A stretch of 38,564 nucleotides of DNA from Siminovitchia fordii DSM 16014 = CIP 108821 (GTDB lineage: Bacteria > Bacillota > Bacilli > Bacillales > Bacillaceae_C), in assembly GCF_000374565.1 (NCBI RefSeq), contig NZ_KB894714.1, positions 1 to 38,564 on the forward strand, given 5' to 3'. The notes beneath the pieces were generated by a model. The model was not told the origin of the DNA and did not search any database. It was given only the letters and a program-made list of their open reading frames with translations. Shown piece by piece: positions 2 through 23,991 of the stretch. A program made the position numbers and the translations under genes. Within the stretch, counting starts at the first letter, position 1, and the number at the start of each line of letters is the position of its first letter.

Positions 2-724
2 GACGGCACTTTCAACATTGTCACGAATAAAGGGGTCCATTTTTCAAAATCGATTATTATTACTGCAGGAAACGGCGCTTTCCAGCCCCGCAAGCTGAAA
101 TTGGAAGGGGAAGAAAGATTCGAGGAAGCGAACCTGCACTATTCTGTTCAGAATCTGGGGCAATTCGAAGGCAGAAAAGTCGCTGTATTCGGCGGTGGAG
201 ATTCCGCAGTCGACTGGGCGATGATGCTTGAACCGATCGCAGAGAAAGTGATGATCATTCACCGCCGTGATAAATTCCGTGCGCATGAGCACAGTGTTGA
301 ATTGCTGCAGCAATCAAAAGTTGACATTTTAACGCCGTATGTGCCTGTTGAGCTCAATGGAGATGAAAGAGTGGAAAACGTGGTCGTTCAGGAAGCAAAG
401 GGCGAAGAGAAGCTTAAGCTTGAAGTGGATGACGTACTGGTGAACTATGGCTTTATCTCATCTTTGGGGCCGATCAAGGACTGGGGCCTGGAAATCGAGA
501 AGAACTCCATCCTGGTGAATTCCAAAATGGAAACAAACATCGAAGGCATTTATGCGGTCGGAGATATTTGCACGTATGAAGGAAAAGTGAAGCTGATCGC
601 AACTGGATTCGGCGAAGCGCCGATTGCTGTGAGCAACGCGAAGGTCTATATGGATCCGACAGCGAAGCTGCAAACCGTTCACAGCACAAGCCTGATGGAA
701 GAAAAGAAGACATCTTTAGTATAA
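2..724 (+). CDS. Ferredoxin-NADP(+) reductase, thioredoxin-reductase-like type (5' end outside window)
   Basis: This is the C-terminal 240 codons of an FAD/NAD(P)H oxidoreductase; the reading frame is open from base 2, so the start lies upstream. The nucleotide-binding motif GGGDSAVDW and the late FAD motif YAVGD are visible. The CxxC redox pair that thioredoxin reductases carry between the two nucleotide-binding regions is absent, which points to the YumC-type ferredoxin-NADP reductase. The stop is 14 nt before a ferredoxin gene, so the two are co-transcribed. Inferred role: passing electrons from NADPH to that ferredoxin and on to the Rieske oxygenase at 1170. It is probably a dedicated second copy rather than the housekeeping enzyme; that part is inference from context. 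Confidence 0.88.
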
Positions 725-1021: not shown

Positions 1022-1056
1022 GAGTGCATTTGCACTCTATGAGCACAAATGCACTC
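1022..1056. promoter_or_regulatory. Candidate enhancer (UAS) copy 1: paired GAGT-N8-ACTC palindromes
   Basis: Two 16-bp half elements, GAGTGCATTTGCACTC and GAGCACAAATGCACTC, are separated by TAT. The same architecture occurs at 5069 and 10592, each upstream of a sigma-54 promoter. Here the element ends 55 bp before the -24 GG. As RNA it could also fold into an 11-bp hairpin, so a second role as terminator of the ferredoxin transcript is possible. The recurrence argues for a protein-binding site. Confidence 0.72.
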
Positions 1057-1109
1057 GCTTTCGTTTTTATAAAACCTTATACCTATAAGTTTTTGCCTGA
1101 CAAAAAAGT

Positions 1110-1125
1110 TGGTACGGATTTTGCG
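1110..1125 (+). promoter_or_regulatory. Sigma-54 promoter P1 (Rieske oxygenase gene)
   Basis: TGGTACG, 4 nt, then TTGCG fits the -24/-12 sigma-54 consensus with exact GG-N10-GC spacing (GG 1111-1112, GC 1123-1124). It lies 45 bp before the ATG at 1170 and downstream of the paired-palindrome element. The expected start of transcription is about 1136. Confidence 0.85.
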
Positions 1126-1169
1126 AATATAAAAATCAAGAAGTTTGAGAAGAGAAGGGAGTTTTTAAA

Positions 1170-2213
1170 ATGGCTACAACAACACAGACTTTGGAGTACA
1201 CACTCCCCTATAAAAATTATGTTGATCCAAAAGTTTTTGAGGAAGAGAAAAAAAAGATTTTCCGCAACAGCTGGGTACTGGCAGGCCATACAAGCCAAGT
1301 TGAAAAAATCGGCGACTTCTTCACCTTTGATATTGCTGACCAGCCGTTGATCATCAGCAGAGACAAAAATAATGAAATTAATGCTTTTTACAACATCTGC
1401 CCTCATAGAGGTTCAAAGGTAGAGAAAAGCGAGTCCGGAAATAAAAGGGTTTTCATGTGCCAGTACCATGGGTGGACGTTCCAATTGGATGGCAAGCTGA
1501 ATAAAGCGCCGAATTTTAATACAAATGAGCTGGGCAAACACAGCTGCATGACGAAGGTAAATTTGGAAGTGTATAAAGGGATGATCTTCATCAATCTGGA
1601 TCCTGCGGCAAAGCCAATGGCTGACACCCTCGGAGACTTTATGAAAGACCTTGAAAAGTATACGTTCCTTGAATCATTGAAAAAAGTACGTGTTACAACT
1701 AGGGTTATTGAAGCCAACTGGAAAGCGGTTATAGACAATTATCTTGAATGTGATCACTGTAAAATTGCCCATCCGGAATTTTCAAAGACGTTTGATATGA
1801 AAAATTACTATATCGATCTGCATGACAATTTTTCATGTCAATATTCAAAAATGACCAGCAAGACAGATGAAGACCGTGAAGAACATGCGAATTTTTATTG
1901 GGTTTGGCCGAATCTAATGGTCAGCATTTACCCGGGAGAAGACGGAAATATGACAACAAGTCAAATACTTCCATTAGCCCCTGATAAATCCCTGGCTATT
2001 TACAGCTACTATTTTAAATCTGATGAAATATCCAAAGAGAATGAAGAACTGATCAGATTTGTCGATCAGGTCCGCCTGGAAGATTTCGACCTTGTTGAAA
2101 TACTGCAAAAAGGTTTTGATACACAAGCATTTGAAAGAGGGATCTACTCTCCGACTGAATATGCCATCAAGTATTTCCATCGGCGTTATGAAGAGGAAAT
2201 GAAAGCAGACTAA
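1170..2213 (+). CDS. Rieske-type non-haem iron oxygenase, alpha subunit (quaternary-amine type suspected)
   Basis: A 347-residue terminal oxygenase. The Rieske 2Fe-2S ligands are C77, H79, C97 and H100 (CPH and CQYH). The mononuclear iron site is H196 and H201 (H-x4-H), with Asp305 or Asp307 as the likely third ligand. The residue expected to bridge the two metal centres is Glu193, three before the first histidine. Glutamate there is described for carnitine oxygenase CntA, whereas ring-hydroxylating dioxygenases have Asp. The gene follows its reductase and ferredoxin and is driven by sigma-54 promoter P1. The window has a BCCT transporter and a betaine-aldehyde-type dehydrogenase, so C-N bond oxidation of a betaine, choline or carnitine-like compound is a fair inference. 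The substrate is not established; aromatic substrates seem less likely. Confidence 0.87.
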   Translation: MATTTQTLEYTLPYKNYVDPKVFEEEKKKIFRNSWVLAGHTSQVEKIGDFFTFDIADQPLIISRDKNNEINAFYNICPHRGSKVEKSESGNKRVFMCQYHGWTFQLDGKLNKAPNFNTNELGKHSCMTKVNLEVYKGMIFINLDPAAKPMADTLGDFMKDLEKYTFLESLKKVRVTTRVIEANWKAVIDNYLECDHCKIAHPEFSKTFDMKNYYIDLHDNFSCQYSKMTSKTDEDREEHANFYWVWPNLMVSIYPGEDGNMTTSQILPLAPDKSLAIYSYYFKSDEISKENEELIRFVDQVRLEDFDLVEILQKGFDTQAFERGIYSPTEYAIKYFHRRYEEEMKAD

Positions 2214-2230
2214 ATCACATCTTCTAACAG

Positions 2231-2255
2231 GACTCCTTTCTGTATGAAGGGAGTC
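2231..2255 (+). terminator. Hairpin after the Rieske gene
   Basis: GACTCCTTTC pairs with GAAGGGAGTC over a 5-nt loop (one G-U). There is no strong T run directly after it, so it may be a weak terminator or an mRNA 3'-end stabiliser. Confidence 0.5.
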
Positions 2256-2268
2256 TGCATATGTAAAT

Positions 2269-2297
2269 TTTTCAGGTGTATGTTACATTGATATAAT
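2269..2297 (+). promoter_or_regulatory. Probable sigma-A promoter of the amino acid dehydrogenase gene
   Basis: TTTTCA, 17 nt, TATAAT at 2292-2297, ending 39 bp before the ATG at 2337. The -10 is perfect and the -35 is weak. No GG-N10-GC match was found here, so this gene seems not to use sigma-54 directly. Confidence 0.5.
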
Positions 2298-2336
2298 ACC
2301 TGGCAGGGCAGCAATCACATCTTAGGAGGAATCACA

Positions 2337-3512
2337 ATGTCTAAACCCTATCTAGTAGTAGAATGGAATGATACTGAAACAGATGCGAAAGGCTGGATGG
2401 TCGTCCATAATTTTGTGAAAGGTTATACAGGCGGCGGCACAAGGATGCATCCGACAGTGACAAAAGAGGAAGTGGAAAGGCTTGCAGAAGCAATGGCCTA
2501 TAAATATGTAGCAAGCGAATCGGAAACGACAGGGGGATGCAAAGCCGGCATCTCTTACGATTACAAAGCTCCGGATGCATATGACGTATTGCGAAGGTTC
2601 TTAATCGCTATGATGCCTTATGTTGATAATGGTGTCTCATTGGGAAGTGACCTTGGAACGAAGTATGAAGATGTCTTGAATATCTTCCATGAATTCGGGA
2701 TCGATATTCCATTGACCCAGTCTATGAAAAAAGATCCTGCTGTTCTTCAAGGAATCAAGGATTATGATGAACTATTATCAAAAAGAATTGACGGTCTTCT
2801 TGTCAATGACGTCGTGACCGGATATGGCGTCGCTTTTTCAGCAGATGAAGCCTGGAAGTTTAAAAAAGGGAAGGAAGGCGCAAAGGTTGTCATCCAAGGA
2901 TTCGGCTGTGTTGGTGCAAGTTGTGCGTTGAAACTCTCCCAATTGGGATATAAAGTGGTTGGAATATCAGATGCTAATTTGCTTGTAACATGTGAAGAAG
3001 GTTTGGATGTACAAAAGCTCATTGATCATAAAAACGTGTATGGTGAAATGGATAAAAATCACTTTGATCCTGCCTATGAGGTAAGACCAAACTCTGAATG
3101 GCTTGATGTCGACTGTGATATTTTGATCCCTTGTGCTTTGGAAGATGTCATTAACGGATCCAACGCAGAAAAGGTAAATGCGAGCCTGGTCGTGGAAGCG
3201 GCTAATATTCCGATTTCTGCAGAAGGGGACGAAATTATCAAGGAAAGAGGGATTGATATCGTCAACGACTTCGTTGCCAACCTTGGAGCAATACGTGCTT
3301 ACGACGCAGTCATTTTCGGACTGGTAGAAGCTGAACCGCAAGCCGTGATCGATGATATCGAAAGGCTTTGCCGGAAAAATGTGTTCCGTCTGTTTACAGA
3401 ATCAAAGGAGCAAAACAGATATCAAAGAGATGTAGCATATGAAATTTTTAAGCCTGCAAAGAGCGATTCATTGGAATATACATCACCAAGTCCAACGTCA
3501 ACTGTCCAATAA
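2337..3512 (+). CDS. Glu/Leu/Phe/Val dehydrogenase family amino acid dehydrogenase, divergent
   Basis: A 391-residue NAD(P)-dependent amino acid dehydrogenase, expected to deaminate an L-amino acid to its 2-oxo acid and ammonia. It shows GGGTR (32-36), the catalytic lysine K69 in GGCKAGI, the catalytic aspartate D105 in SDLGT, and a Rossmann loop GFGCVG (188-193). Two family signatures are altered: the usual GGAKGGI is GGCKAGI, and the usual EGANGP-like segment reads EAANIP. This suggests a substrate other than glutamate or leucine. The Shine-Dalgarno AGGAGG is 7 nt before the ATG. It sits between the Rieske gene and an amino acid permease; with the ThDP enzyme and aldehyde dehydrogenase downstream it would complete an amino acid to 2-oxo acid to aldehyde to acid route. 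That pathway is inference. Confidence 0.85.
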   Translation: MSKPYLVVEWNDTETDAKGWMVVHNFVKGYTGGGTRMHPTVTKEEVERLAEAMAYKYVASESETTGGCKAGISYDYKAPDAYDVLRRFLIAMMPYVDNGVSLGSDLGTKYEDVLNIFHEFGIDIPLTQSMKKDPAVLQGIKDYDELLSKRIDGLLVNDVVTGYGVAFSADEAWKFKKGKEGAKVVIQGFGCVGASCALKLSQLGYKVVGISDANLLVTCEEGLDVQKLIDHKNVYGEMDKNHFDPAYEVRPNSEWLDVDCDILIPCALEDVINGSNAEKVNASLVVEAANIPISAEGDEIIKERGIDIVNDFVANLGAIRAYDAVIFGLVEAEPQAVIDDIERLCRKNVFRLFTESKEQNRYQRDVAYEIFKPAKSDSLEYTSPSPTSTVQ

Positions 3513-3516
3513 TTGA

Positions 3517-3553
3517 AGGCGGAAGATGCAAATAGGCATCAACCGCCTGTTTT
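3517..3553 (+). terminator. Intrinsic terminator after the amino acid dehydrogenase gene
   Basis: AGGCGG-AA-GATGC pairs with GCATC-AA-CCGCCT, followed by GTTTT. Confidence 0.82.
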
Positions 3554-3557
3554 AAAA

Positions 3558-3572
3558 AGAAAGCGCTATAAT
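3558..3572 (+). promoter_or_regulatory. -10 element (TATAAT) overlapping a cre-like site
   Basis: TATAAT lies at 3567-3572 ahead of the permease gene, with no good -35. The overlapping AGAAAGCGCTATAA matches about 11 of 14 positions of the CcpA cre consensus, so carbon catabolite repression is possible. Confidence 0.4.
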
Positions 3573-3591
3573 ACGGAAATGGGGAAAGTGA

Positions 3592-5025
3592 ATGCAAGAA
3601 CAGGTGAGTCAACCTAAAGAATTGAAACGTTCAATGAAAAGCCGTCATTTGTTTATGATGTCAATCGGAGGGGTCATCGGAACAGGGTTATTTCTGGGGT
3701 CGGGGTATTCCATAAGTGAAGCCGGTCCTGCGGGTTCAATTACCGCTTATCTGTTTGGTGGCCTGGTTATGTACCTGGTCATGGTTTGTCTTGGGGAATT
3801 GTCGGTAGTCATGCCAGTATCGGGATCATTCCAAGCTCACGCTGAAAGATTTATCGGTCCTGCGACCGGATTTATGATTGGATGGACTTACTGGCTGAGC
3901 TGGGCCATTTATGTAGGGTTGGAGTTTATTGCGGCCGGATTGCTCATGGCCAGATGGTTTCCGGATGTGCCTGTATGGGTCTGGTGCACAACTTTTGCTT
4001 TAATCCTATTCGGTATCAATGCTTTGACGGTAAGAAGTTTTGCAGAGACGGAATATTGGTTTTCCGCTGTTAAAGTCATTGCTGTCCTCTTCTTTATTGT
4101 AGTAGGCGGGGCGGCGATCTTTGGACTCATTCCGATTAAAGGGGAATCTGCACCGTTCCTTTCAAACTTTTTCAGTGACGGATTGTTTCCAACAGGATTC
4201 ACAGGTGTTTTTATCTCTATGATGACGGTTGTATATGCCTTTATGGGTTCGGAAATTATGGGAGTTGCAGCGGGAGAGACAGAAAATCCCGAAAAAAATA
4301 TTCCAAGAGCGATTCGAAGCATTGTTATCCGTATCTTAGTTTTTTATGTACTGGCAACCTTTGTTTTATCAGCAATCGTTCCATGGAAAGAAGCTGGGGT
4401 GCTTGAGAGCCCGTTTGTAACCGTATTCGATATGATCGGTATCCCCTATGCTGCTGATATTATGAACTTTGTCATCTTAACCGCCATTTTATCGGTTGGT
4501 AATACAGGTTTATTCGCTTGTACAAGAATGCTGTTTTCGCTTTCCCAAAGCGGACAGGCTCCACGCGTATTTGGAAAAGTGAACAAGCGCGGAGTACCAA
4601 TGAACGCATTGTTGGTCACCCTAGTGTTTGCCTTGCTATCCTTACTTACTAGTGTCATCGCAGAAGAAACGTTATTCGTTGTACTGTTAGCAATCAGCGG
4701 TGTAGGCGGCGTCGTTACATGGATGGCAATTGCGTGGGCCCAGTACCGATTCCGCAAGCAATATATTGCAGACGGAGGAAGATTGGAAGATTTGAAGTTT
4801 AAAGTTCCTTTTTTCCCGCTAGTTCCATTTCTAGCCTTGATTATGTGTGTCGGCCTCGTTGTATTTACCGCATTTGATCCAACGCAGCGTACATCGCTGT
4901 ATATAGGATTCGGTTTCGTCGCACTTTGCTATGTATTCTACTATTTTAAATTTAAAAGGAATAAGGTGGATGCTACTGTTGCTACTGTTCTGACGGATGA
5001 AAAGCCTGATAAGCTAGTTCAATAA
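3592..5025 (+). CDS. Amino acid permease, AAT/APC family
   Basis: A 477-residue, about 12-helix membrane transporter. It carries the APC hallmark GGVIGTGLFLGSG in the first helix and the conserved segment EIMGVAAGETENPEKNIPRA in the central region, as in the LysP/RocC/RocE and S-methylmethionine permease group. These proteins import L-amino acids by proton symport. The start has GGGGAAAG 6 nt upstream. It follows the amino acid dehydrogenase, so it may import that enzyme's substrate. The group includes carriers for basic amino acids, but specificity cannot be read from sequence. Confidence 0.88.
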   Translation: MQEQVSQPKELKRSMKSRHLFMMSIGGVIGTGLFLGSGYSISEAGPAGSITAYLFGGLVMYLVMVCLGELSVVMPVSGSFQAHAERFIGPATGFMIGWTYWLSWAIYVGLEFIAAGLLMARWFPDVPVWVWCTTFALILFGINALTVRSFAETEYWFSAVKVIAVLFFIVVGGAAIFGLIPIKGESAPFLSNFFSDGLFPTGFTGVFISMMTVVYAFMGSEIMGVAAGETENPEKNIPRAIRSIVIRILVFYVLATFVLSAIVPWKEAGVLESPFVTVFDMIGIPYAADIMNFVILTAILSVGNTGLFACTRMLFSLSQSGQAPRVFGKVNKRGVPMNALLVTLVFALLSLLTSVIAEETLFVVLLAISGVGGVVTWMAIAWAQYRFRKQYIADGGRLEDLKFKVPFFPLVPFLALIMCVGLVVFTAFDPTQRTSLYIGFGFVALCYVFYYFKFKRNKVDATVATVLTDEKPDKLVQ

Positions 5026-5068
5026 TTTTCTATCTTTCAAAATATCATTTTCTCACCTCGACAAAACT

Positions 5069-5103
5069 GGGTTTAAAAATACTCTATGAGTATAAGAACA
5101 CTC
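5069..5103. promoter_or_regulatory. Candidate enhancer (UAS) copy 2: paired GAGT-N8-ACTC palindromes
   Basis: GGGTTTAAAAATACTC, TAT, GAGTATAAGAACACTC. The core ATACTC-TAT-GAGTAT is a perfect inverted repeat. It ends 42 bp before the -24 GG of P2. Unlike copy 1 the outer arms do not pair, so this copy is no terminator hairpin. Confidence 0.75.
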
Positions 5104-5143
5104 ACGTAATACATCTCTGAGCCATTTATCAGTTCTTCTAACT

Positions 5144-5159
5144 TGGCATGGAAATTGCA
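5144..5159 (+). promoter_or_regulatory. Sigma-54 promoter P2 (symporter/ThDP/ALDH operon)
   Basis: TGGCATG, GAAA, TTGCA: a near-consensus -24/-12 with exact GG-N10-GC spacing (5145-5146 and 5157-5158). Predicted transcription start is near 5170, leaving a leader of about 325 nt before the DUF3311 gene. Confidence 0.9.
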
Positions 5160-5170
5160 AATATAGAATT

Positions 5171-5495
5171 GGAATGTCAGAAGGGAGAGAAGCTTTATCA
5201 TTTAGATGGACTCTGCGTGCCCAGACCTCACAAAATGGGGACCATCTTCATTGCAGGATAGTTATGGATTAGCCGGTAGGAAAGTAGGCCTTCAACAGAA
5301 GAAAAAATGGCTGAACATTCGTGAACATCGTTGAATGAATACGACCAAAATCAAATAGCGATTTAAAACAGATCCATTTATACAGATGAATGCGCTGCAC
5401 ACAAATTTACAGATAACTGGAAACGGTTCATCTTTTTGTGGACATGGTTTCATCACGAATCAGCGGCAGTATAATTCGACCAGGAGGTTCAGCTA
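5171..5495 (+). other. Long untranslated leader of the P2 operon
   Basis: No recognised riboswitch is seen. An ATG at 5206 opens a 42-codon frame to TGA at 5334, but it has no close Shine-Dalgarno site. A cre-like TGGAAACGGTTCAT lies at 5418-5431, one base short of the usual spacing. The leader is much longer than those of P1 and P3. Confidence 0.4.
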
Positions 5496-5696
5496 ATGAA
5501 GAAAAGATTCTGGCTGTATATTTTCAGTATGATACCCGCAATCGGCAGCTTGACTGTCATCAATAAAATTGAACCATATGTCCTTGGGATGCCATTTGTA
5601 TTGTTTTGGCTGATGCTGTGGGTCGTGCTCACTTCCCTTTTCTTATACATTGTCAACATACTTGATCCTGCAAATGAAGGGGAAGATGACATTTGA
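5496..5696 (+). CDS. DUF3311 small membrane protein, symporter partner
   Basis: A 66-residue protein with two predicted transmembrane helices (about 4-22 and 30-55) and an acidic tail. The segment PFVLFWLMLWVVLTSLFLY is typical of DUF3311 proteins, which are encoded directly upstream of sodium:solute symporters much as YhdT accompanies PanF. AGGAGG precedes the ATG by 9 nt. Its TGA overlaps the TTG start of the symporter (TTGA), so the two are translationally coupled and probably act together in the membrane. It is the first gene of the P2 operon. Confidence 0.85.
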   Translation: MKKRFWLYIFSMIPAIGSLTVINKIEPYVLGMPFVLFWLMLWVVLTSLFLYIVNILDPANEGEDDI

Positions 5697-7195
5697 ATAT
5701 TTCACTTGCAATCACATTCGGTATTTTGGCACTGGCATGTTTATTGGGTATCCGGGCACGAAAAGGCAAAAATATGGACATGGAAGGATGGGCCGTCGGC
5801 GGCAGAAGCTTCGGACCAATCGTCGTATTTTTCCTGTTGGCTGGCGAAATGTTCACGACGTTCACCTTTTTGGGTGCAAGCGGAATGGCCTATGGAGTAG
5901 GGATGCCTGCGGTTTACGCATTTAACTGTTTCTACTTTGTGATTGCTTACTGGCTGCTACCGCCTATTTGGAAATACGCCAAAAAGAACAACGTCATTTC
6001 ACAATCCGATTTTTATGTAAAAAAATATGATAGTGTAGGTCTAGGGGTTGTGGTCGCCCTCATTGGGGTGATAGCCTCTGTTTCCTACCTCGTCATGCAA
6101 TTTGTCGGCTTGGGGATTATTGTTTCATCGTCGTCCTATGGAGCTATTTCATCCGGGTTGGCTGTTGTAATCAGTGGTTTGATTGTTGCTATATATGTAA
6201 CGGTTTCCGGAATGCACGGATCGGCTTGGACAGCCATTATGAAAGATATCTTGACCCTGGGGGTCATTGTGTTCATGGGTTTTTATTTTCCAATCTATTA
6301 TTATGGAGGATTTAGACCGATGTTCCAGGCCATAGAAAGCGCGCATCCGGAGATGCTTCTATTTCCGGCTGAAGGTTTGAGCATTACTTGGTTTATCACC
6401 ACAACAATCATGCTCGCTTTGGGTTTTTATCTGTTTCCACACATGCAAAGCGGAGTCTTTTCGTCAAAAAGCGCGAAAGCGTTGCGATGGAATGCTGCCA
6501 GTATGCCGTTATACCAACTGATTATTGTGTTTTCCATCATTATCGGATTTTCGGCCATTATTCAGGTTCCGGGTTTGGACGATGCCGACATGTCTTTATT
6601 CAAACTTGCCCAAGCTTCTTTTCCACCTTGGTTTGTGGGGATGATTGGAGCAGCAGGAGCATTGGCCGCACTCGTCCCAAGCTCTATCGTTCTGCTGTCA
6701 TCGGCAACACTTTTATCCAAAAATATATATAAAGTATGGAAGCCTGAAACGACAGATAAGCAGATAAATAATTTGAGCCGTTCTCTTGTCCCTGTATTGG
6801 TTGTATTTGCAGTCTTTTTTGCATTGAATGAATCCAAGCTGATCGGCCTGATCTATATTATGGTGTACAGTATCATCGTCCAATTGTTCCCTGCTTTGTT
6901 CTTCAGCTTACTGAAAAAGAATCCGGTCAACAAAATCGGGGCATTGACAGGGATGATTGTCGGTGTACTCATCGTCATCTATTCAACGCTGACTGACACG
7001 ACGATGGCTACGCTATTCCCAAACCTTCCGGGCTACATCAAAGACTTTGATACTGGGCTTGTTATTTTGATCATCAACTTTATCGTGACGTACGTTGTGG
7101 GCGTTGCCACAAACAAAGCGGTAAAAAGCGAGACTGGCAGCCTGCGGGGAGAATCCGAAAGAAAAATGGACTTTCATCATATGAAGGTTAAATGA
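5693..7195 (+). CDS. Sodium:solute symporter (SSS) family transporter
   Basis: A 500-residue protein with about 13 transmembrane helices and the SSS architecture. The TTG start is chosen because it overlaps the preceding stop codon (TTGA) and AAGGGGAAG lies just upstream. Members import organic acids, amino acids, choline, pantothenate and similar solutes with Na+. It lies in the P2 sigma-54 operon before the ThDP enzyme and aldehyde dehydrogenase, suggesting it carries a substrate or intermediate of that pathway. Specificity is unknown; a monocarboxylate or amino acid is as likely as a quaternary amine. Confidence 0.88.
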   Translation: MNISLAITFGILALACLLGIRARKGKNMDMEGWAVGGRSFGPIVVFFLLAGEMFTTFTFLGASGMAYGVGMPAVYAFNCFYFVIAYWLLPPIWKYAKKNNVISQSDFYVKKYDSVGLGVVVALIGVIASVSYLVMQFVGLGIIVSSSSYGAISSGLAVVISGLIVAIYVTVSGMHGSAWTAIMKDILTLGVIVFMGFYFPIYYYGGFRPMFQAIESAHPEMLLFPAEGLSITWFITTTIMLALGFYLFPHMQSGVFSSKSAKALRWNAASMPLYQLIIVFSIIIGFSAIIQVPGLDDADMSLFKLAQASFPPWFVGMIGAAGALAALVPSSIVLLSSATLLSKNIYKVWKPETTDKQINNLSRSLVPVLVVFAVFFALNESKLIGLIYIMVYSIIVQLFPALFFSLLKKNPVNKIGALTGMIVGVLIVIYSTLTDTTMATLFPNLPGYIKDFDTGLVILIINFIVTYVVGVATNKAVKSETGSLRGESERKMDFHHMKVK

Positions 7196-7262
7196 AAGTG
7201 GCAGCTGCTTTGCTGCGTTAGCATTTTTAATTATCGTAGAAAAACATCTTGGGAGGATCATA

Positions 7263-8972
7263 ATGAATAATCAAGTAGAACATGCAGTATTAGAACCAAA
7301 AAATAACCAGACAGAATACACAGTTGCAGATGCGATTGTGGAAGAGCTTGTGGCTGCTGGAGTCGAGGTTATCTTCGGAATCGTAAGTATCCATAATATG
7401 CCGATCTATGATGCAATGCTTCGGAACGGAAAGATCCGCATGGCAACTGCTCGTGGCGAAAGTGGTGCGGTCAATATGGCAGATGCGTATTCGCGTGCGA
7501 CCGGTAAACTTGGCGTCGTCCTGACAAGCACGGGAGCCGGTGCAGGAAATGGTGCAGGTTCATTGACGGAAACATGGAACTCCGGTACACCTCTTCTTCA
7601 TATTACGGGTGAAGCTGATTCCAACTATATCGGAACAGACCAACGATATATTCATGAATGTAAAGACCAATTGAAAATGATGGACGGTGCAAACAAAGCC
7701 GCTTATCTTTTGAAACGCCCGAAATTGATCACGCCGTTCATGCGTAAAGCGATCAATGAGGCACAGACTGTGCCGACAGGACCTGTCACTGTTCAGATTC
7801 CAACAAATTTCCAAGCGATGATCATTCCTAAAAACCAATTGGTTGAAGTGCAAACAGTAGAGAATGCAGAGACTAAAATCAACCTTCCGGCTGAAGTGGT
7901 TGAAAAAATCGCCGCGGCAAAAAGACCTGTCATCTGGGCAGGAGACGGAGTGATCCATTCAGGAGCATCGGAAGAACTATTGGCGCTGGTGGAGAAAATT
8001 CAGCCTGCAGTTGTTACAAGTGAATCCGCAAAAGGTGCCATTCCTGAAGAACACCCTCTTTGCATCGGAAACTTTGCGTGGTTCCCTCGATTTGAGGAGC
8101 TCTTGAGCAAGGCAGATTTGCTCATCAGCATTGGAGTACGTTTCCGCGGTGGGGAAACAAACGGCTGGACTTCCCCAGTACCTGAAAATCACATTAATAT
8201 CGATCTGAATCCAAATGCGTTTAACCGCAGTTTTGATACACTTTTCGGATTGGTCGGTGATGCCAAAGCCGTCTTACATGAAATCAACAAAGCGTTGACA
8301 GATAAGGACATCAATCCTGATGCTGCTTATGTGGAAGAAGTTAAAGCATGCCGCCAAGGCGTTCGCGACGATCTCTGCAGCACGATCGAGCCTTATGGAG
8401 ATATCGCTTCAATTATGAATGACAAGCTTCCTGAAAATACAGTGCTAGTGACAGATGTGACCATCCCAGGATATACTTGGGCAAATAAATTGGTTGATGT
8501 TCATGAACCAAGAAATTACCTCTACATGACAGGCGGAGGAATCGGACAAGGTTTGCCGATGGCAATCGGCGCCAAAGTCGGCCAGCCGGAAAAACCTGTC
8601 GTTCTTGTTGCAGGAGACGGCGGTTTTATGGTGAATGCGGGTGAGATGATCACGGCAGTCCAGGAAGATGCACCAATCATCGTCTTATTATTCGATGATG
8701 GAGGCTACGGAATTTTAAAATATTATCAAGAGGCTGCTTATGGAAGAAAGACGGCTGTTGATTTGCAAAACCCTGATTTCGTTATGATGGCCAAATCCAT
8801 GGGCTTTGAATCAGAGAAAGTGACATCTGTTGAGGAATTTGAAAAAGGACTGGACAACGCCATTGCCAGTAAAAAACCTTATATGGTTGTTGTTGATGTA
8901 GAAGCAGTCGGAGTTCTTCATTATAAAGATTCCGACGAATACATCCGTTCTTTCCGCCCGCACGGAGAATGA
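7263..8972 (+). CDS. ThDP-dependent enzyme, acetolactate synthase/2-oxo acid decarboxylase superfamily
   Basis: A 569-residue protein with the three-domain layout of the ThDP decarboxylase/synthase family. The cofactor-activating glutamate is E66 within RGES; most relatives have HE here. The Mg-ThDP motif starts GDGG (451-454) and ends with DDGG (478-481), where NN or DN is usual. These changes set it apart from true acetolactate synthase, and no regulatory subunit gene is nearby. Standing just before an aldehyde dehydrogenase and in an island with an amino acid dehydrogenase, a 2-oxo acid decarboxylase making an aldehyde is the best inference, analogous to the AruI step of arginine catabolism. 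A carboligase or lyase remains possible. GGGAGG precedes the ATG. Confidence 0.82.
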   Translation: MNNQVEHAVLEPKNNQTEYTVADAIVEELVAAGVEVIFGIVSIHNMPIYDAMLRNGKIRMATARGESGAVNMADAYSRATGKLGVVLTSTGAGAGNGAGSLTETWNSGTPLLHITGEADSNYIGTDQRYIHECKDQLKMMDGANKAAYLLKRPKLITPFMRKAINEAQTVPTGPVTVQIPTNFQAMIIPKNQLVEVQTVENAETKINLPAEVVEKIAAAKRPVIWAGDGVIHSGASEELLALVEKIQPAVVTSESAKGAIPEEHPLCIGNFAWFPRFEELLSKADLLISIGVRFRGGETNGWTSPVPENHINIDLNPNAFNRSFDTLFGLVGDAKAVLHEINKALTDKDINPDAAYVEEVKACRQGVRDDLCSTIEPYGDIASIMNDKLPENTVLVTDVTIPGYTWANKLVDVHEPRNYLYMTGGGIGQGLPMAIGAKVGQPEKPVVLVAGDGGFMVNAGEMITAVQEDAPIIVLLFDDGGYGILKYYQEAAYGRKTAVDLQNPDFVMMAKSMGFESEKVTSVEEFEKGLDNAIASKKPYMVVVDVEAVGVLHYKDSDEYIRSFRPHGE

Positions 8973-8977
8973 GGCGG

Positions 8978-9020
8978 ATCGGCGGCCATACGAGGGACAA
9001 AACCGAGTATGGCTGCCGAT
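8978..9020 (+). terminator. Long hairpin between the ThDP and ALDH genes
   Basis: ATCGGCGGCCATAC pairs with GTATGGCTGCCGAT (one G-U) and is followed by TCAATTTTA. The weak T run suggests partial termination or mRNA processing, which would lower ALDH expression relative to the upstream genes. Confidence 0.65.
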
Positions 9021-9076
9021 TCAATTTTACAAGAGAAACCTTATGAAAGCTTGCAAACTAGGGAGGCATCAAGGTT

Positions 9077-10549
9077 ATGGCACAAAACTTGAAACTGTAT
9101 ATTAACGGGGAATGGGTGGATTCAAGCAACCCGGAAATGCAAGACATTCTAAATCCTGCCAATCAGGAAGTCATTGCCAAAGCCCCAAAAGCAACGAAGG
9201 AAGAGACGGAAGAAGCGATAAAAATCGCAAAAAGCGCGTTTGAAAGCGGAGCATGGTCTGACAGGACTCCGCAAGAAAGGGCGAAAGTTTTACTTCAGAT
9301 TGCAGAGAAGATGGAAGAGAACTTGGATGAGCTTGCGGAACTGGAAATGAAAAACAACGGGAAGACCCTAAGGGAAGCACAGTCGGACGCCGCGGATGCA
9401 GCCAACACTTTCCGTTATTATGCGGGACTCCTCGATCATCCTTCTGGAGTAACGTACCAAGCGATAGAGGATTTGCAAACAATGATTGTCAAAGAGCCGA
9501 TGGGGGTTGCAGGACTGATTGTTCCCTGGAACTTCCCGCTATTAATGAGCGTCTGGAAAATTGCCCCTGCGCTGGCGGCAGGCAACTCCATTATTTTAAA
9601 ACCGGCCGAAATCACTCCGGTAACGGCTGTCAAAGTATTTGAATTGATAGATCAGACCGATTTACCAAAAGGCATCGCACATCTTGTGATGGGGTCCGGT
9701 TCAGTTGTCGGCCAGACCATCGCTGAAAGTGATGATGTCGATGTCGTTTCCTTTACAGGAAGCACAGGGGTGGGTCGGAACATCATGCAAGCCGCTACAG
9801 GCAATCTGAAAAAAGTTTCCTTGGAATTGGGTGGGAAGTCACCTAATATCATTTTTGATGATGCTGATTTGGAGACAGCGGTTGACTATGCTCTGTTTGG
9901 AATTTTTATGGGGTCTGGTCAGGTTTGCTCATCCGGAAGCCGTATTTTGGTACAAGAAGGAATCTATGATGAATTCGTGGCAAAATATGTGGAAAAAGCA
10001 AAAGGGATCAAAGTCGGCCCAGGGAATGACGAAAGCTCACAAATGGGGGCGATTGTCAGCGAAAAGCACATGGAAAGTATTTTGGAATATATCCGGATTG
10101 GGAAAGAGGAAGGCGGTAATCTTGCTTGCGGCGGAAGCCGGATTCAGAGGGACGGCATGGAAAAAGGGTTCTTTATCGAGCCGACCGTCTTCACGGATGT
10201 AACAAGCGACATGAAAATTGTGCGCGAAGAAATTTTTGGTCCTGTTGTCGCTATCCAAAAATTCAAGGATGAAGCCGAAGCAGTACGCATTGCGAACGAT
10301 ACGGAATTCGGCTTGGCAGGCGCTGTGTTTTCCGAAGACCAAAATAAAGCGATGCGCGTTATCCGAAAAGTTCGCGCGGGAATTACCTGGGTGAACGCCT
10401 ATCATCTGACGAATGTTCAAGCTCCGTGGGGAGGCTACAAACAGAGCGGAATCGGAAGAAGCCTTGGAACTTATGGATTGGATGAATATCAAGAGACGAA
10501 GCAAATCAATATTAACCTGGATCCGAAGCCAATCCGCTTTTTTGAGTAA
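9077..10549 (+). CDS. NAD(P)-dependent aldehyde dehydrogenase, betaine-aldehyde-dehydrogenase-like
   Basis: A 490-residue ALDH with all catalytic landmarks: N152 in PWNFP, K175 in LKPAE, FTGSTGVG, general base E250 in LELGGKSP, and nucleophile C284 in GQVCSSGSR. Length and motifs match the GbsA/BetB and gamma-aminobutyraldehyde dehydrogenase group. It oxidises an aldehyde to the acid. In context the aldehyde would come from the ThDP decarboxylase or from Rieske cleavage (for example betaine aldehyde, malic semialdehyde or a trimethylamino-aldehyde). GGGAGG lies 12 nt before the ATG. It is the last gene of the P2 operon. Confidence 0.93.
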   Translation: MAQNLKLYINGEWVDSSNPEMQDILNPANQEVIAKAPKATKEETEEAIKIAKSAFESGAWSDRTPQERAKVLLQIAEKMEENLDELAELEMKNNGKTLREAQSDAADAANTFRYYAGLLDHPSGVTYQAIEDLQTMIVKEPMGVAGLIVPWNFPLLMSVWKIAPALAAGNSIILKPAEITPVTAVKVFELIDQTDLPKGIAHLVMGSGSVVGQTIAESDDVDVVSFTGSTGVGRNIMQAATGNLKKVSLELGGKSPNIIFDDADLETAVDYALFGIFMGSGQVCSSGSRILVQEGIYDEFVAKYVEKAKGIKVGPGNDESSQMGAIVSEKHMESILEYIRIGKEEGGNLACGGSRIQRDGMEKGFFIEPTVFTDVTSDMKIVREEIFGPVVAIQKFKDEAEAVRIANDTEFGLAGAVFSEDQNKAMRVIRKVRAGITWVNAYHLTNVQAPWGGYKQSGIGRSLGTYGLDEYQETKQININLDPKPIRFFE

Positions 10550-10552
10550 GAT

Positions 10553-10580
10553 AAGGCCGATCCTTTAAGCCGGCTTTTTG
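10553..10580 (+). terminator. Intrinsic terminator of the P2 operon
   Basis: AAGGCCG pairs with CGGCTTT (one G-U), running into a five-T tract, directly after the ALDH stop. Confidence 0.7.
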
Positions 10581-10591
10581 ATGGCAGAAGT

Positions 10592-10626
10592 GAGTTCGTA
10601 CGCACTCTATGAGTGTCCATGAACTC
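10592..10626. promoter_or_regulatory. Candidate enhancer (UAS) copy 3: paired GAGT-N8-ACTC palindromes
   Basis: GAGTTCGTACGCACTC, TAT, GAGTGTCCATGAACTC. It ends 54 bp before the -24 GG of P3, nearly the same distance as copy 1 (55 bp). Confidence 0.75.
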
Positions 10627-10678
10627 ACTTCATTTATAAATAAAGCCTCAGTTACATTCGTTACGGGAAAATATATTT

Positions 10679-10694
10679 TGGTATAGTTATTGCA
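10679..10694 (+). promoter_or_regulatory. Sigma-54 promoter P3 (BCCT transporter gene)
   Basis: TGGTATA, GTTA, TTGCA with exact GG-N10-GC spacing (10680-10681 and 10692-10693). Predicted transcription start is near 10706. Confidence 0.87.
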
Positions 10695-10800: not shown

Positions 10801-10816
10801 TTAAAAGCGCTTACAT
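10801..10816. promoter_or_regulatory. Probable cre (CcpA) site in the BCCT leader
   Basis: TTAAAAGCGCTTACAT matches the cre consensus at all but about one position. It lies downstream of P3 and just before the Shine-Dalgarno site, where CcpA would act as a roadblock. This suggests repression in the presence of preferred sugars. Confidence 0.55.
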
Positions 10817-10833: not shown

Positions 10834-12396
10834 ATGGAGCAATCGAAGGTTGATAGAATGATATTCTTCTCGGCTCTGGCTGTCATTAGCATTTTTACTG
10901 TACCCATTTTAATCAATCCTGAAAAAGGAAATCAATTTCTGGGATCCATACTAGGATTTATTGGAGGGAAGTTCGGCTCTTTATATTTGTTGACTGCTTT
11001 TTTAATATTCGTGGCTTTGTTATATTTGGCCATGAGTAAGTATGGGAATATCAGGCTTGGCAATCCTGAGCAAGGCCCGGAGTTCTCGACCCTTAGCTGG
11101 ATCGCGCTTATTTTTACATCAACAGCAGGTTCAAGTCTGCTCTACTGGGGATTTATAGAATGGTCGTATTATTATACTGCACCGCCATTCGGGATGACGC
11201 CTGGAAGTACGGAAGCTGCGGAGTGGGCGTCCACATATGGCATATTCCACTGGGGCTTTATGGGTTTTTCCATTTACTGTTTGCCTACGATTGCCTTGGC
11301 TTATGCTTTATTTGTAAAAAAGATTCCGAATCTGCGATTGAGTTCGGCATGCCGCGGAGTGCTCGGTGACCGCGTCGATGGTCCACTTGGAAAATGTATT
11401 GATGTTATGTTCATGTTCGGGATTGTTGGAGGTGTTGGAACATCCCTCGGTCTTGGAACACCGATGCTTGCCGAAGCACTTTCCAATTTATTGGGAGTAA
11501 AGCGTTCTTTGATGCTGGATGTGGGCATTCTTTCATTTTGGACTCTTATTTTTACTTCCAGCGTTTATTTTGGCTTGAAAAAAGGTCTTAAAATATTGAG
11601 TGATGTCAACACGGCTTTGTACTTCGTGTTTGCTGCGTTCTTTTTTATCGTCGGTCCTACAGTGTTCATCCTTAACAAGTTTACGGACAGCATGGGCTTA
11701 CTTGTTCAGAACTTCCTGAGAATGAGTCTGTATACGGACTCTGTAGGCGGATCGTCATTTGCACAGGATTGGACCATCTTTTACTGGGCATGGTGGTTTG
11801 CCCTCGCGCCGTTCATGGCGATGTTCACTGCGCGGATTTCAAAGGGAAGAACTATTCGCGAAGTGATTGTCGGAATGTGTGTGGCAGGTACACTTGGCTG
11901 TGCGCTAGCATTCGCTATATTTGGCAATACGAGTATGTATTTTGAGTTAAATGGTATTCTTCCGATTGTGGACATTGTACAAAATGAGGGAGCACCAGCT
12001 GCGATTGTAGCAATTATCCAAGCTATGCCGCTCGGTACGACTGTCTTGCTGACCGTGTTTGTTATCCTGGCTTTCATTTTCCTTTCTACTACAATTGATT
12101 CGGCAGCTTATACTTTATCTTTTATGTCTTCGAAGGCAGCCACGGAGAAACAGGAGCCGGCAAGATGGATCAGAGTTTTCTGGGCGGTGATGATCGGTGC
12201 TGTGGCGGTCATCCTGATGTATGGTGGAGGGTTATCTGCTTTGCAGACGCTGTCAGTCATTACAGGCTTCCCGATTATGTTCATTTGTATAATCATCGGT
12301 ATTTCTTTATTCAAATGGCTAAAAGAAGACTTTGCAAAAAGTGTAGACCGACAGCCTGTTTCTAAAAATTACTCAGATGAGAAAATTTCCAGTTGA
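10834..12396 (+). CDS. BCCT family transporter, CaiT-like
   Basis: A 520-residue, about 12-helix betaine/carnitine/choline transporter. It closely follows CaiT over the core: RLGN near 74-77, PEFSTLSWI, YYYTAPPFG (112-120), GTSLGLGTP, the aromatic segment FYWAWW (316-321) and ARISKGRT. In that segment M328 aligns with the CaiT substrate-site methionine (Met331), whereas BetP has valine. The position of CaiT Tyr327 is Leu here and the second half (APFM) is BetP-like, so the site is a hybrid. It may exchange or import a carnitine/betaine-like solute. Its own sigma-54 promoter, the shared enhancer element and a cre site tie it to catabolism rather than osmoprotection. AGGAGG precedes the ATG. 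Confidence 0.93.
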   Translation: MEQSKVDRMIFFSALAVISIFTVPILINPEKGNQFLGSILGFIGGKFGSLYLLTAFLIFVALLYLAMSKYGNIRLGNPEQGPEFSTLSWIALIFTSTAGSSLLYWGFIEWSYYYTAPPFGMTPGSTEAAEWASTYGIFHWGFMGFSIYCLPTIALAYALFVKKIPNLRLSSACRGVLGDRVDGPLGKCIDVMFMFGIVGGVGTSLGLGTPMLAEALSNLLGVKRSLMLDVGILSFWTLIFTSSVYFGLKKGLKILSDVNTALYFVFAAFFFIVGPTVFILNKFTDSMGLLVQNFLRMSLYTDSVGGSSFAQDWTIFYWAWWFALAPFMAMFTARISKGRTIREVIVGMCVAGTLGCALAFAIFGNTSMYFELNGILPIVDIVQNEGAPAAIVAIIQAMPLGTTVLLTVFVILAFIFLSTTIDSAAYTLSFMSSKAATEKQEPARWIRVFWAVMIGAVAVILMYGGGLSALQTLSVITGFPIMFICIIIGISLFKWLKEDFAKSVDRQPVSKNYSDEKISS

Positions 12397-19287: not shown

Positions 19288-19725
19288 TAGCACGGTAGTG
19301 GCTTCGTTTTGTCGGGGAGAATAGGACGGAAATCAGCGTTCAAACGATTATCATGCTTTTCGTACAATAAACCCGAAAACACATGATTCCCGGATATTGA
19401 ATCAATCGCTATTATAGTTCATTATAAAAGAGTTGTAAGGTTTAATTACAAACATGTTATTTAAGATTCAACCCTCTTATTTCAATGAAGGGTCTTATAG
19501 TAGAAATATATCCATTGTTTTTTATATAAATTTTTGAATAATAAAACTTGTCATTTTAAGAAAGAGGGGTGTTCAATTTTGAAGAAGAGATCACTTACGT
19601 TTCTTTAGGATATGGATACTCCCACTGCTGTTTTTTTCTGGAAAGTTTTCAAAGGGTGAAGTGTGTCCAAAAATTGTTGTTCTAGTCGAAAACTACAGAA
19701 TAAATTTAAAATGGCGAGGTGAAAA
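19288..19725 (+). other. 438-base intergenic stretch, possible gene remnant
   Basis: An inverted repeat TTGTAA-N7-TTACAA lies at 19433-19451 and a weak ACCCT/AGGGT hairpin near 19470-19490. Near 19579 a TTG preceded by AGAGGGGTG starts a basic N-terminus (MKKRSLTFL) that stops at once. A -1 shift would continue into a hydrophobic signal-like stretch, which could be the wreck of an exported-protein gene. Nothing else is seen. Confidence 0.3.
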
Positions 19726-20124
19726 ATGGTGTACGAAAAAATTATAAGAAAAAATCCAACAACCATGCCAGCACCAGTTGGTCATTACACCCACATTACA
19801 AAAATTCCCAGGAACGCAGAACTGTTTGTGACGTCAGGTCAAATCGGTGCAGATCATGATGGAAATTTACCCGAACAAATGAATTCGCAAGTCAAAAATA
19901 CGTTCACAAATATAAAAACTGTATTAGAGTCTGAAGGGTTATGCAATGAAAATATTATAAAAGTGAACATTTGGGCAACTGAACAAATCGATTGGGATTT
20001 TTTATATGATGAGTGGGAAAAGTTATTCAGTAACGAATATCCTGCAATGACCATCGGGTATATTTCAGAATTGGGATTACCTGAGATAAAGATTGAGATA
20101 GAAATATGGGCTGCTAAAGTATAA
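19726..20124 (+). CDS. RidA/YjgF-family protein lacking the catalytic arginine
   Basis: A 132-residue member of the Rid (YER057c/YjgF/UK114) family, trimeric proteins whose RidA branch hydrolyses reactive enamine/imine intermediates. The C-terminal signature is PAMTIGYISELGLPEIKIEIE. Canonical RidA has an arginine after PA (PAR); here it is M108, so deaminase activity of the classical kind is doubtful and a Rid2-7-like role is more likely. The start ATG follows GGCGAGGTG. It stands alone between the activator and the dehydrogenase operon with its own terminator. Function inferred only at family level. Confidence 0.85.
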   Translation: MVYEKIIRKNPTTMPAPVGHYTHITKIPRNAELFVTSGQIGADHDGNLPEQMNSQVKNTFTNIKTVLESEGLCNENIIKVNIWATEQIDWDFLYDEWEKLFSNEYPAMTIGYISELGLPEIKIEIEIWAAKV

Positions 20125-20147
20125 GTTTAATCAGACATACTTCACTG

Positions 20148-20184
20148 AAAACATGGAACGACTTGAATGCTTCCATGTTTTTTT
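20148..20184 (+). terminator. Intrinsic terminator of the RidA-like gene
   Basis: AAAACATGGAA pairs with TTCCATGTTTT and runs into a long T tract. Confidence 0.9.
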
Positions 20185-20569: not shown

Positions 20570-20628
20570 TGTCCCGTTTTGGTACAGTGTCTCATCTATG
20601 AAAGGACACTTTGTATCAAAACGGGACA
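20570..20628. promoter_or_regulatory. Paired upstream activating sequences of the dehydrogenase operon
   Basis: TGTCCCGTTTTGGTACA (20570-20586) and TGTATCAAAACGGGACA (20612-20628) are each an imperfect TGTNCC-N5-GGNACA dyad. They are also inverted copies of each other, with perfect 12-bp outer arms. Centres are 42 bp apart, four helical turns, which suits two activator dimers on one DNA face. The second ends 43 bp before the -24 GG. Confidence 0.75.
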
Positions 20629-20669
20629 TATTTTTTATCGAAAGGCGTTGAATTCAGGGGATTGAAAAT

Positions 20670-20685
20670 TGGAACAAAACTTGCT
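20670..20685 (+). promoter_or_regulatory. Sigma-54 promoter P4 (dehydrogenase operon)
   Basis: TGGAACA, AAAC, TTGCT with exact GG-N10-GC spacing (20671-20672 and 20683-20684), 43 bp before the ATG at 20728. Confidence 0.85.
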
Positions 20686-20727
20686 GTTTATCATTAGTAG
20701 ATCTTTAAAGAAAAAGGAGGAACAAAC

Positions 20728-21711: not shown

Positions 21712-21786
21712 ACGGACTGAACCAAAGGTTTGAGAGTCTTACATTTTAGGGTTGAGAAAAATGCAGATTGGAAAGGAGAAAATTCG

Positions 21787-22809: not shown

Positions 22810-22831
22810 TTGCTTCTAAGGAGTGAAATTC

Positions 22832-23947: not shown

Positions 23948-23955
23948 AGAGATGC

Positions 23956-23988: not shown

Positions 23989-23991
23989 TGT

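Follow-up and report, generated by a model that had tools for sequence, protein, structure and literature searches.

Three 35-bp elements in a stretch of 38,564 nucleotides from the soil bacterium Siminovitchia fordii (hereafter the window) are very probably tandem upstream activating sequences for a PAS-AAA+ bEBP encoded on another contig, C34, which would drive a four-promoter regulon serving to break down a trimethylammonium compound. The kind of regulon is ordinary; the assignment is new. It provides one operator and regulon for a σ54 activator family that occurs beside carnitine-monooxygenase-type Rieske oxygenases (loci in Siminovitchia, Peribacillus, Neobacillus, Sporosarcina, Aneurinibacillus and others) and allows nine unlike genes to be tested as a single pathway. 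It also corrects the natural mis-assignment of the sites to the nearest activator gene. Carnitine-monooxygenase-type Rieske chemistry can release trimethylamine, and the operator would provide a direct handle for finding such catabolic genes in other genomes.

Tandem palindromes and σ54 promoters in the window

The double motif GAGT-N8-ACTC/TAT/GAG-N9-ACTC is present in the window in three copies, at 1022-1056, 5069-5103 and 10592-10626 (Table 1). Direct reading of the letters bore out the common plan described in the earlier note, including the restriction of variation to two four-base ends (GGGT and GAGC). TAT joins the distal and proximal palindromes in all three copies, the centres of the two palindromes of enhancer 1 are separated by 19 bp, and the inner N8 shows partial symmetry, with 4 to 7 of 8 possible pairs per unit. 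The core ACTC-TAT-GAG, said to be invariant, is identical in the three window copies, but TAT is not fixed in orthologous sites, where the spacer reads TAT, TGT or ACT (promoter orientation) and one palindrome is lost in some cases. At up to two mismatches, the window gave three matches to the double motif compared to none in 100 dinucleotide shuffles, and a scan of the whole 4.5-Mb genome, as the note had proposed, returned only the three island copies. With three mismatches, one further place and copy 3 read backwards were added, the reversed-pattern control giving one. The single 16-bp palindrome is at chance level genome-wide (33 places vs 29 for the control), so that the evidence rests on pairing and promoter context, and a genome-wide use of the single palindrome was rejected. 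A palindrome copy near another bEBP, on contig C14, is a terminator-like hairpin with longer arms. An Rfam scan of the window yielded no match at gathering scores.

Each copy is shortly followed by a perfect GG-N10-GC in full consensus context, namely TTGGTACGGATTTTGC (1109), TTGGCATGGAAATTGC (5143) and TTGGTATAGTTATTGC (10678). The distance from the motif end to GG is 54, 41 and 53 bases for copies 1, 2 and 3, respectively, a range of 41-54 bp where 42-55 bp had been claimed. As anticipated, these promoters precede the Rieske gene, the symporter/ThDP/ALDH operon and the BCCT gene (3/3 in the window). The exact sequence TTGGYAYN5TTGC occurs in the window at these three sites only; when one mismatch was allowed, 6 matches were obtained vs 3.1 expected, and thus only exact promoter matches carry weight. 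A composite enhancer+promoter pattern retrieved five promoters from the own genome and none with the control: the three of the window, that of the reductase/ferredoxin genes on C34 and that of a paralogous cluster on contig C11, the last two extending the regulon past the window promoters. Among 299 genomes of the order, the composite was found at four places outside the own genome (control, 2); three, L130-L132, are bEBP/reductase or Rieske/BCCT loci, and the fourth, L133, adjoins a different bEBP.

Table 1. Sites, promoters and genes of the window discussed in the text.
Feature	Position	Strand	Sequence	Remark
FAD reductase, C-terminal part	101..724	+		ORF from 101
Enhancer 1, distal palindrome	1022..1037	+	GAGTGCATTTGCACTC	motif match, shuffle test
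Enhancer 1, proximal palindrome	1041..1056	+	GAGCACAAATGCACTC	motif match, shuffle test
σ54 promoter before Rieske gene	1109..1125	+	TTGGTACGGATTTTGCG	exact consensus match
Rieske oxygenase	1170..2213	+		nearest (best) solved relative, carnitine monooxygenase CntA (E 2e-58)
Glu/Leu/Phe/Val-type dehydrogenase	2337..3512	+
Amino-acid permease	3592..5025	+		nearest curated model, S-methylmethionine permease, below cut-off
Enhancer 2, distal palindrome	5069..5084	+	GGGTTTAAAAATACTC	motif match, shuffle test
Enhancer 2, proximal palindrome	5088..5103	+	GAGTATAAGAACACTC	motif match, shuffle test, enhancer+promoter composite search
σ54 promoter, symporter/ThDP/ALDH operon	5143..5159	+	TTGGCATGGAAATTGCA	exact consensus match
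Sodium:solute symporter	5693..7195	+
ThDP-dependent enzyme, related to 2-oxo-acid decarboxylases	7263..8972	+		NF005470 above cut-off
Aldehyde dehydrogenase, betaine-aldehyde-dehydrogenase-like	9077..10549	+
Enhancer 3, distal palindrome	10592..10607	+	GAGTTCGTACGCACTC	motif match, shuffle test, enhancer+promoter composite search
Enhancer 3, proximal palindrome	10611..10626	+	GAGTGTCCATGAACTC	motif match, shuffle test, enhancer+promoter composite search
σ54 promoter, BCCT gene	10678..10694	+	TTGGTATAGTTATTGCA	exact consensus match
BCCT (betaine/carnitine/choline) transporter	10834..12396	+
GAF-AAA+-HTH_8 activator (DhaR/AcoR-like)	17344..19287	+		assigned to E1/E2 operon
Separate enhancer	20570..20628	+	TGTCCCGTTTTGGTACA...TGTATCAAAACGGGACA	assigned to 17344 activator
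σ54 site before E1-alpha gene (20728)	20669..20684	+	TTGGAACAAAACTTGC

Conservation of the sites and their probable cognate activator

The motif is also found upstream of orthologous genes in relatives, which supports the earlier view that the shared sites, with their σ54 promoters, define one regulon. At island-type loci, counted over related species that are not independent samples, 19 of 23 promoters are preceded by a site (≤2 mismatches) whose end lies 48-53 bp from TTGG, compared to 0.42 expected, and 11 of 23 by a pair (≤2 mismatches in total) at 19-21 bp (0.000 expected); the symporter site of the window ends 39 bp before TTGG, outside the 48-53 bp range. Two units 19-33 bp apart lie upstream of 27 of the 74 related bEBP genes, the spacing being 19 bp at 2 loci, 20 at 11, 21 at 4 and 31-33 at 10; the 19-bp centre spacing singled out in the note is the commonest value in Siminovitchia. 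In the five island-type Neobacillus loci and in L045, the distal palindrome has degenerated and no pair is detected at the thresholds used, and the pair of L046 appears only with four mismatches in all, suggesting either that a single dimer sometimes suffices or that the operator tolerates more variation than the pattern allows. At L049 and L050, the Rieske genes have enhancer-like sites but no palindrome precedes the bEBP gene, which is not divergent. When the double pattern was searched in 397 genomes of the order, 7 genomes other than the own one matched (reversed control, 4). The only relevant locus among them, L038 of G342, carries the site between ferredoxin and Rieske genes, with one mismatch when read opposite to the promoter strand and two on the promoter strand, and the other six matches fall in unrelated places.

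The gene for the PAS-AAA+ activator, ortholog of P0001, is located on C34, divergent from the reductase/ferredoxin genes and about 0.6 kb past the left window edge, a placement that relies on 83 identical codons shared by the contig ends. The start of the FAD reductase gene, with its own σ54 promoter and enhancer, is on the same contig. A profile search of P0001 revealed PF00158 (the σ54-interaction AAA+ domain, E 1.2e-69) and a PAS domain. Among 34 genomes of the family, the double site (≤2 mismatches) is present in three, and the same three encode a close bEBP ortholog (88-100%), the next best bEBP matches being 57-58% paralogs; it is this co-occurrence that led us to name the C34 bEBP as the likely cognate activator. 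In all three genomes, the intergenic region between the divergent bEBP and reductase genes contains a perfect GAGT-N8-ACTC and a σ54 consensus site facing the reductase. More generally, an exact palindrome lies within 250 bp upstream of 59/74 related bEBP genes compared to 2/261 control genes. In the protein itself, the loop typically reading GAFTGA in bEBPs is GAFTNA; among P0001-type proteins it reads G[AS]FTNA in 10/15 and G[AS]FTGA in 5/15, whereas all 59 paralog-type proteins have G[AS]FTGA. The GAGT sites most likely belong to this activator, so that the enhancer, for which the note knew no regulator, can now be linked to one particular bEBP gene close to the window edge.

The earlier note had pointed instead to the GAF-type activator at 17344, which lies 5 kb from the island and was the sole bEBP recognised in the scan of window proteins. 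In four genomes (G024, G025, G027 and the own one), however, this type of activator adjoins the E1/E2 operon, which has a different, conserved enhancer of its own, GTCCC...GGGACA, and promoter TTGGAAYAAAWCTTGC. The link to this operon is not universal, since the stretch of G028 that carries a 66% homolog (residues 1-589) lacks E1/E2 genes, but both the double site and a close P0001 ortholog are missing from this genome and from G024, which has an 87% homolog. The 19.9-kb stretch read in G024 contained no GAGT-N8-ACTC site and no Rieske island, and the HTH of 17344 is unlike that of the P0001 family. As co-occurrence of the sites with 17344 across genomes was not found, this protein was rejected as their owner, and we give almost no credence to its binding them. 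A rather doubtful possibility is that the C34 bEBP shares the sites with a second activator, its 57% paralog on C11. The recognition helices are near-identical (ISQTKASRLIREY vs ISQTQAAKLIREY), the paralog has GAGT-N8-ACTC sites before its own gene and before its reductase, and paralog-type loci in other species also have tandems, with a spacing of exactly 19 bp in 2/59. Nevertheless, most of the paralog-type tandems (21/23) are spaced at 20 or 31-33 bp, and G026 retains the paralog yet lacks the double site at ≤2 mismatches. Cross-binding by the C11 paralog would be compatible with the C34 bEBP as activator and not exclusive of it.

Palindromes could also act as RNA stems, in a transcription terminator or hairpin. 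Copies 1 and 3 indeed fold strongly (z -4.9 and -7.8), and copy 1 lies about 25 bp downstream of the ferredoxin gene and is followed by a U-rich run; a double use as terminator and enhancer may occur at these two copies. By contrast, copy 2 folds no clearly better than shuffles (z -0.94), so that a stable hairpin with a U-run is not a property of every copy and the terminator was rejected as a general explanation. The sites moreover keep a narrow distance from σ54 promoters, and single ones also occur upstream of divergent bEBP genes, which makes this explanation highly improbable. A separate repressor or another non-bEBP regulator could also bind the palindromes, which are common operators of many factor families. 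The position of the sites upstream of -24/-12 promoters and before the bEBP's own gene, together with their tight co-occurrence with bEBP genes, argues against such a regulator, which we consider very unlikely.

Proposed mechanism and pathway

Under control by the C34 bEBP, each 35-bp element would be a tandem upstream activating sequence some 40-70 bp upstream of the -24 box, made up of two 16-bp GAGT-N8-ACTC operators with 19 bp between their centres, each probably occupied by one dimer of the PAS-AAA+-HTH protein. As in the bEBP family, the PAS domain would sense an inducer, and the bound dimers would assemble the AAA+ ring, whose ATP hydrolysis would open the σ54-polymerase complex. The regulon would comprise the reductase and ferredoxin genes, the Rieske oxygenase gene with those of the dehydrogenase and permease, the symporter/ThDP/ALDH operon and the BCCT gene, and its products would jointly import and oxidise a trimethylammonium compound.

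Judging from gene content, the island most likely serves the catabolism of such a betaine-type compound, possibly trimethyllysine via delta-valerobetaine. The permease would import the amino acid and the ELFV dehydrogenase would yield the 2-oxo acid; the ThDP enzyme would decarboxylate it and the BADH-like ALDH would give delta-valerobetaine (5-trimethylaminovalerate); the BCCT protein would transport betaines, and the CntA-like Rieske system would liberate trimethylamine. That the regulon represents an undescribed aerobic trimethyllysine route, under a dedicated GAFTNA-loop PAS bEBP and a GAGT-N8-ACTC enhancer class widespread in Bacillaceae and neighbouring families, is a tentative proposal that we regard as rather unlikely.

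Comparison with known systems

Neither the enhancer nor the regulon is named in the titles or abstract starts of the open-licence PMC literature among the matches listed, nor are they mentioned in the excerpts available of PMC6615313, PMC4279683, PMC4941409, PMC4428206 and PMC12316311, to which the comparisons below are limited. The EBP groups reconstructed in Clostridiales share with the present system, and with bEBPs in general, inverted-repeat UAS, often several per promoter and usually beside the bEBP gene; fifteen groups have TGT-N10-12-ACA and others have other motifs (PMC6615313). These UAS are mostly 100-250 bp upstream (PMC6615313), vs about 40-85 bp here, and the strings 'GAGT', 'betaine' and 'carnitine' are absent from the main text of that paper as excerpted.

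GabR of Bacillus thuringiensis, described as a PAS-AAA+-HTH bEBP controlling gabT for GABA use, binds close upstream of the σ54 promoter, over a 21-bp inverted repeat with 5 bp in between, and reportedly leaves the promoter of its own gene unbound (PMC4279683). By this description, GabR resembles the C34 bEBP in domain plan and in paired repeats near a σ54 promoter, and the primer letters of the gabT site contain GAGTC/GACTC (PMC4279683), compatible with GAGT/ACTC half-sites; it differs in its gabT/GABA target and in the reported lack of binding to its own promoter. A search of the order with the published B. thuringiensis letters of the gabT promoter and primers matched 0/397 genomes, and the GabR link thus remains a lead. 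SoxR of the same species, a σ54 activator for sarcosine, reportedly binds at an 11-bp inverted repeat that lies 54 bp ahead of the soxB start (PMC4941409), and it has a PAS domain (PMC4428206). Like the C34 protein, it is a PAS bEBP, and it controls N-methyl amine catabolism; the A/T-rich repeat and the sarcosine oxidase locus, rather than a Rieske one, set it apart.

HTH scores against Pfam HTH_50 were 20.3 and 26.2 bits, under the curated cut-off of 27. We take this model to be the TyrR-type HTH; TyrR boxes read TGTAAA-N6-TTTACA and are unlike GAGT-N8-ACTC. The paralogous C11 cluster looks like a carnitine-to-malate route. The island resembles the CntAB carnitine monooxygenase clusters in its CntA-type Rieske protein and differs from them in adding an amino-acid dehydrogenase, a ThDP enzyme and an amino-acid permease, for none of which, to our knowledge, carnitine breakdown has a need.

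Double sites and σ54 promoters

Direct reading of the window confirmed the positions and sequence plan proposed in the earlier note for the three 35-bp elements (GAGT-N8-ACTC, TAT, GAG-N9-ACTC), which precede the Rieske gene, the symporter/ThDP/ALDH operon and the BCCT gene. With up to two mismatches, this double motif was found exactly three times in the window, always on the plus strand, and never in 100 shuffles of the window. As also proposed, a σ54 promoter follows each element, with an exact TTGGYAYN5TTGC in all three cases and nowhere else in the window; allowing one mismatch gave a small excess (6 observed vs 3.1 by chance).

The expectation that double sites are confined to this island held genome-wide at up to two mismatches, only the window's three being found. 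At three mismatches one extra place appeared on contig C17, copy 3 also matched read backwards, and the reversed-pattern control gave one match. The lone 16-bp palindrome was at chance level (33 vs 29 for the reversed control). A composite pattern, in which this palindrome has a σ54 promoter 25-85 bp downstream, marked five promoters (in six rows, the BCCT promoter accounting for two; control 0): the window's three, that of the C34 reductase and that of the reductase in a paralogous cluster on contig C11.

In blind scans of the order, the double pattern at up to two mismatches matched 8 of 397 genomes, own genome included (reversed control, 4 genomes); in six of the seven others the site had two mismatches and lay in places without any regulon gene. 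In the seventh (locus L038) it lies between the ferredoxin and Rieske genes, with two mismatches on the promoter strand and one on the opposite strand. The composite pattern matched 5 of 299 genomes, own included (control 2), the four others being two bEBP/reductase intergenic regions, one site before Rieske-BCCT genes and one adjoining another bEBP gene.

Features of the window and of related contigs
Feature	Location	Remarks
Element copy 1	window 1022-1056	before Rieske gene
Element copy 2	window 5069-5103	before symporter/ThDP/ALDH operon
Element copy 3	window 10592-10626	before BCCT gene
Membrane-like ORF, 66 aa	window 5496-5696	ATG at 5496, read by eye; overlaps symporter start
GTCCC...GGGACA enhancer of second σ54 unit	window 20570-20628	conserved; also in G024, G025, G027
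σ54 site of second unit	window 20669-20684	
bEBP gene	C34 919-2289 (L025)	divergent from reductase
Perfect unit GAGTTATTTGGAACTC	C34:877-892	bEBP/reductase intergenic
TTGGCATGGTTTTTGCT	C34, bEBP/reductase intergenic	oriented toward reductase
Paralogous cluster	C11 1156-9421 (L027)	bEBP (57%), reductase, ferredoxin, Rieske (49%), ALDH, dehydrogenase, BCCT

Several side observations concern these promoter regions. By eye, several Rieske promoters (window 1060-1105 and L041-L047, for example) are separated from their enhancer by a recurring A/T-rich stretch (TTTTTAAAACCT...GGCTTTT...AAAAAG), possibly a bend. The 66-aa ORF, preceded by a leader of ~330 bases, probably encodes the symporter's small partner. 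In the BCCT leader, TTAAAAGCGCTTACA (window 10801-10815) resembles a CcpA cre box, a possible sign of catabolite repression.

The probable activator gene on contig C34 and conservation of the putative operator

The window spans the entire contig C30 (38,564 bases), and the left neighbour of the island lies outside it. The same-genus genome G027 shows the island running on leftward, with genes for a ferredoxin and an FAD reductase and a divergent one for P0001, a PAS-AAA+ protein with an HTH at its C-terminus. In the own genome, C34:2-250 and the window start (101-349) encode 83 reductase residues with 100% identity; this terminal overlap indicates an assembly break inside the reductase gene and places the bEBP start (C34:919) ~0.57 kb beyond the left end of the window. 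Among 34 family genomes, close P0001 orthologs were found only in G027 (100%, itself), G025 (96%) and the own genome (88%, C34), the next-best matches reaching 57-58%; these three are also the genomes with double sites at up to two mismatches, a co-occurrence that makes the C34 activator the probable owner of the GAGT sites. A second, weaker unit lies 21 bp from GAGTTATTTGGAACTC. The activators of L039-L048 and C34 have a GAFTNA (or GSFTNA) loop replacing GAFTGA (among named loci, 10 of the 15 proteins of P0001 type); paralogs retain G[AS]FTGA.

A Rieske-protein scan of named genomes yielded 80 loci. With an alignment of at least 380 residues as the threshold, 74 of them contain a related bEBP gene. 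An exact GAGT-N8-ACTC lies within 250 bp upstream of 59 of these 74 genes (69 at up to one mismatch), compared with 2 of 261 control genes of the same loci (18 at up to one mismatch), one of the two exact controls being a short match to the bEBP family itself; the loci are akin to one another, and neither these counts nor those that follow are independent. Split by best query, the exact unit precedes 10/15 P0001-type and 49/59 paralog-type genes. Within the same 250 bp, no unit was found even at one mismatch in L111, L112, L049, L050 and L091; L111 and L112 encode Alicyclobacillus proteins, 35% identical and with a different recognition helix. Two units precede 27 of the 74 genes, spaced by 19 (2 loci), 20 (11), 21 (4) or 31-33 bp (10).

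Among 23 hand-chosen promoters of island-type loci, 19 have a unit whose end lies 48-53 bp before TTGG (shuffles predict 0.42); the symporter promoter of the window, with 39 bp, belongs to the other four. Two units spaced 19-21 bp, with no more than two mismatches in total, occur at 11 of the 23 (0.000 expected). The TAT spacer, described earlier as invariant, is not conserved: related loci show TAT, TGT or ACT in promoter orientation. The five island-type loci of Neobacillus retain GAAC-N8-ACTC-like sequences as the proximal unit, and their distal unit is degenerate. A second G027 Rieske gene (~83% identical to the window's; L011 3-335, L010 19187-19900) heads the ThDP/ALDH operon with its own enhancer, the distal unit being readable as GAGT-N10-ACTC.

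Alternative regulator and alternative reading of the elements

The window also holds a second σ54 unit (17344-25594), with a GAF-type activator and E1-alpha/E1-beta/E2 and formamidase-like genes. This 17344 activator (GAF-AAA+-HTH_8) had been the candidate regulator of the GAGT sites. It lies close to the E1/E2 operon in the own genome, G025, G027 and G024, and GTCCC...GGGACA arms with a TTGGAAYAAAWCTTGC promoter lie upstream of that operon. G024 encodes a homolog (87% identity), and neither GAGT-N8-ACTC nor a Rieske island was found in its 19.9 kb stretch, nor any double site genome-wide. The activator's proximity to the E1/E2 operon, and its presence in G024 with no GAGT site on that stretch, thus make its ownership of these sites very unlikely. 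Around a 66% homolog in G028, the stretch examined contains no E1/E2 genes; association with that operon is thus not universal.

The elements might instead be read as RNA hairpins, with which copies 1 and 3 are compatible but copy 2 is not; copy 1 may double as the terminator of the ferredoxin gene.

Proposed mechanism and pathway, and known relatives

Since GAGT-N8-ACTC often stands alone upstream of bEBP genes, we take it to be the unit operator; most simply, one unit would be the site for one dimer. In the tandem, centres lie 19 bp apart and the proximal unit ends ~40-60 bp before the -24 box, a geometry that, by analogy with the bEBP family, would suit a pair of dimers on which an AAA+ ring nucleates to remodel the σ54 complex.

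A single pathway is supported by the gene order of Neobacillus, where the Rieske, ThDP, ALDH, dehydrogenase and permease genes are consecutive and in the same direction. The Rieske protein is nearest to carnitine monooxygenase and the ALDH to betaine aldehyde dehydrogenase; the ThDP enzyme scores above the NF005470 cut-off, its relationship to 5-guanidino-2-oxopentanoate decarboxylase falling below cut-off; the island transporter is a BCCT. Action in the order amino-acid dehydrogenase, 2-oxo-acid decarboxylase, aldehyde dehydrogenase and Rieske cleavage would suit trimethyllysine degradation via delta-valerobetaine, a reading that we rate as rather unlikely. On C11, the bEBP gene is preceded by two GAGT-N8-ACTC-like units spaced by 33 bp, and the dehydrogenase resembles, by eye, isopropylmalate/D-malate enzymes; we infer what looks like a carnitine-breakdown cluster.

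GabR of B. thuringiensis is reported as a PAS bEBP whose footprint of 96 bp covers 21-bp inverted repeats near a σ54 promoter (PMC4279683). The published primer letters include GAGTC/GACTC, so the GAGT-N8-ACTC operator class may already be represented at the GabR site. What is new here is the operator and regulon assignment for a σ54 activator of an otherwise known kind.
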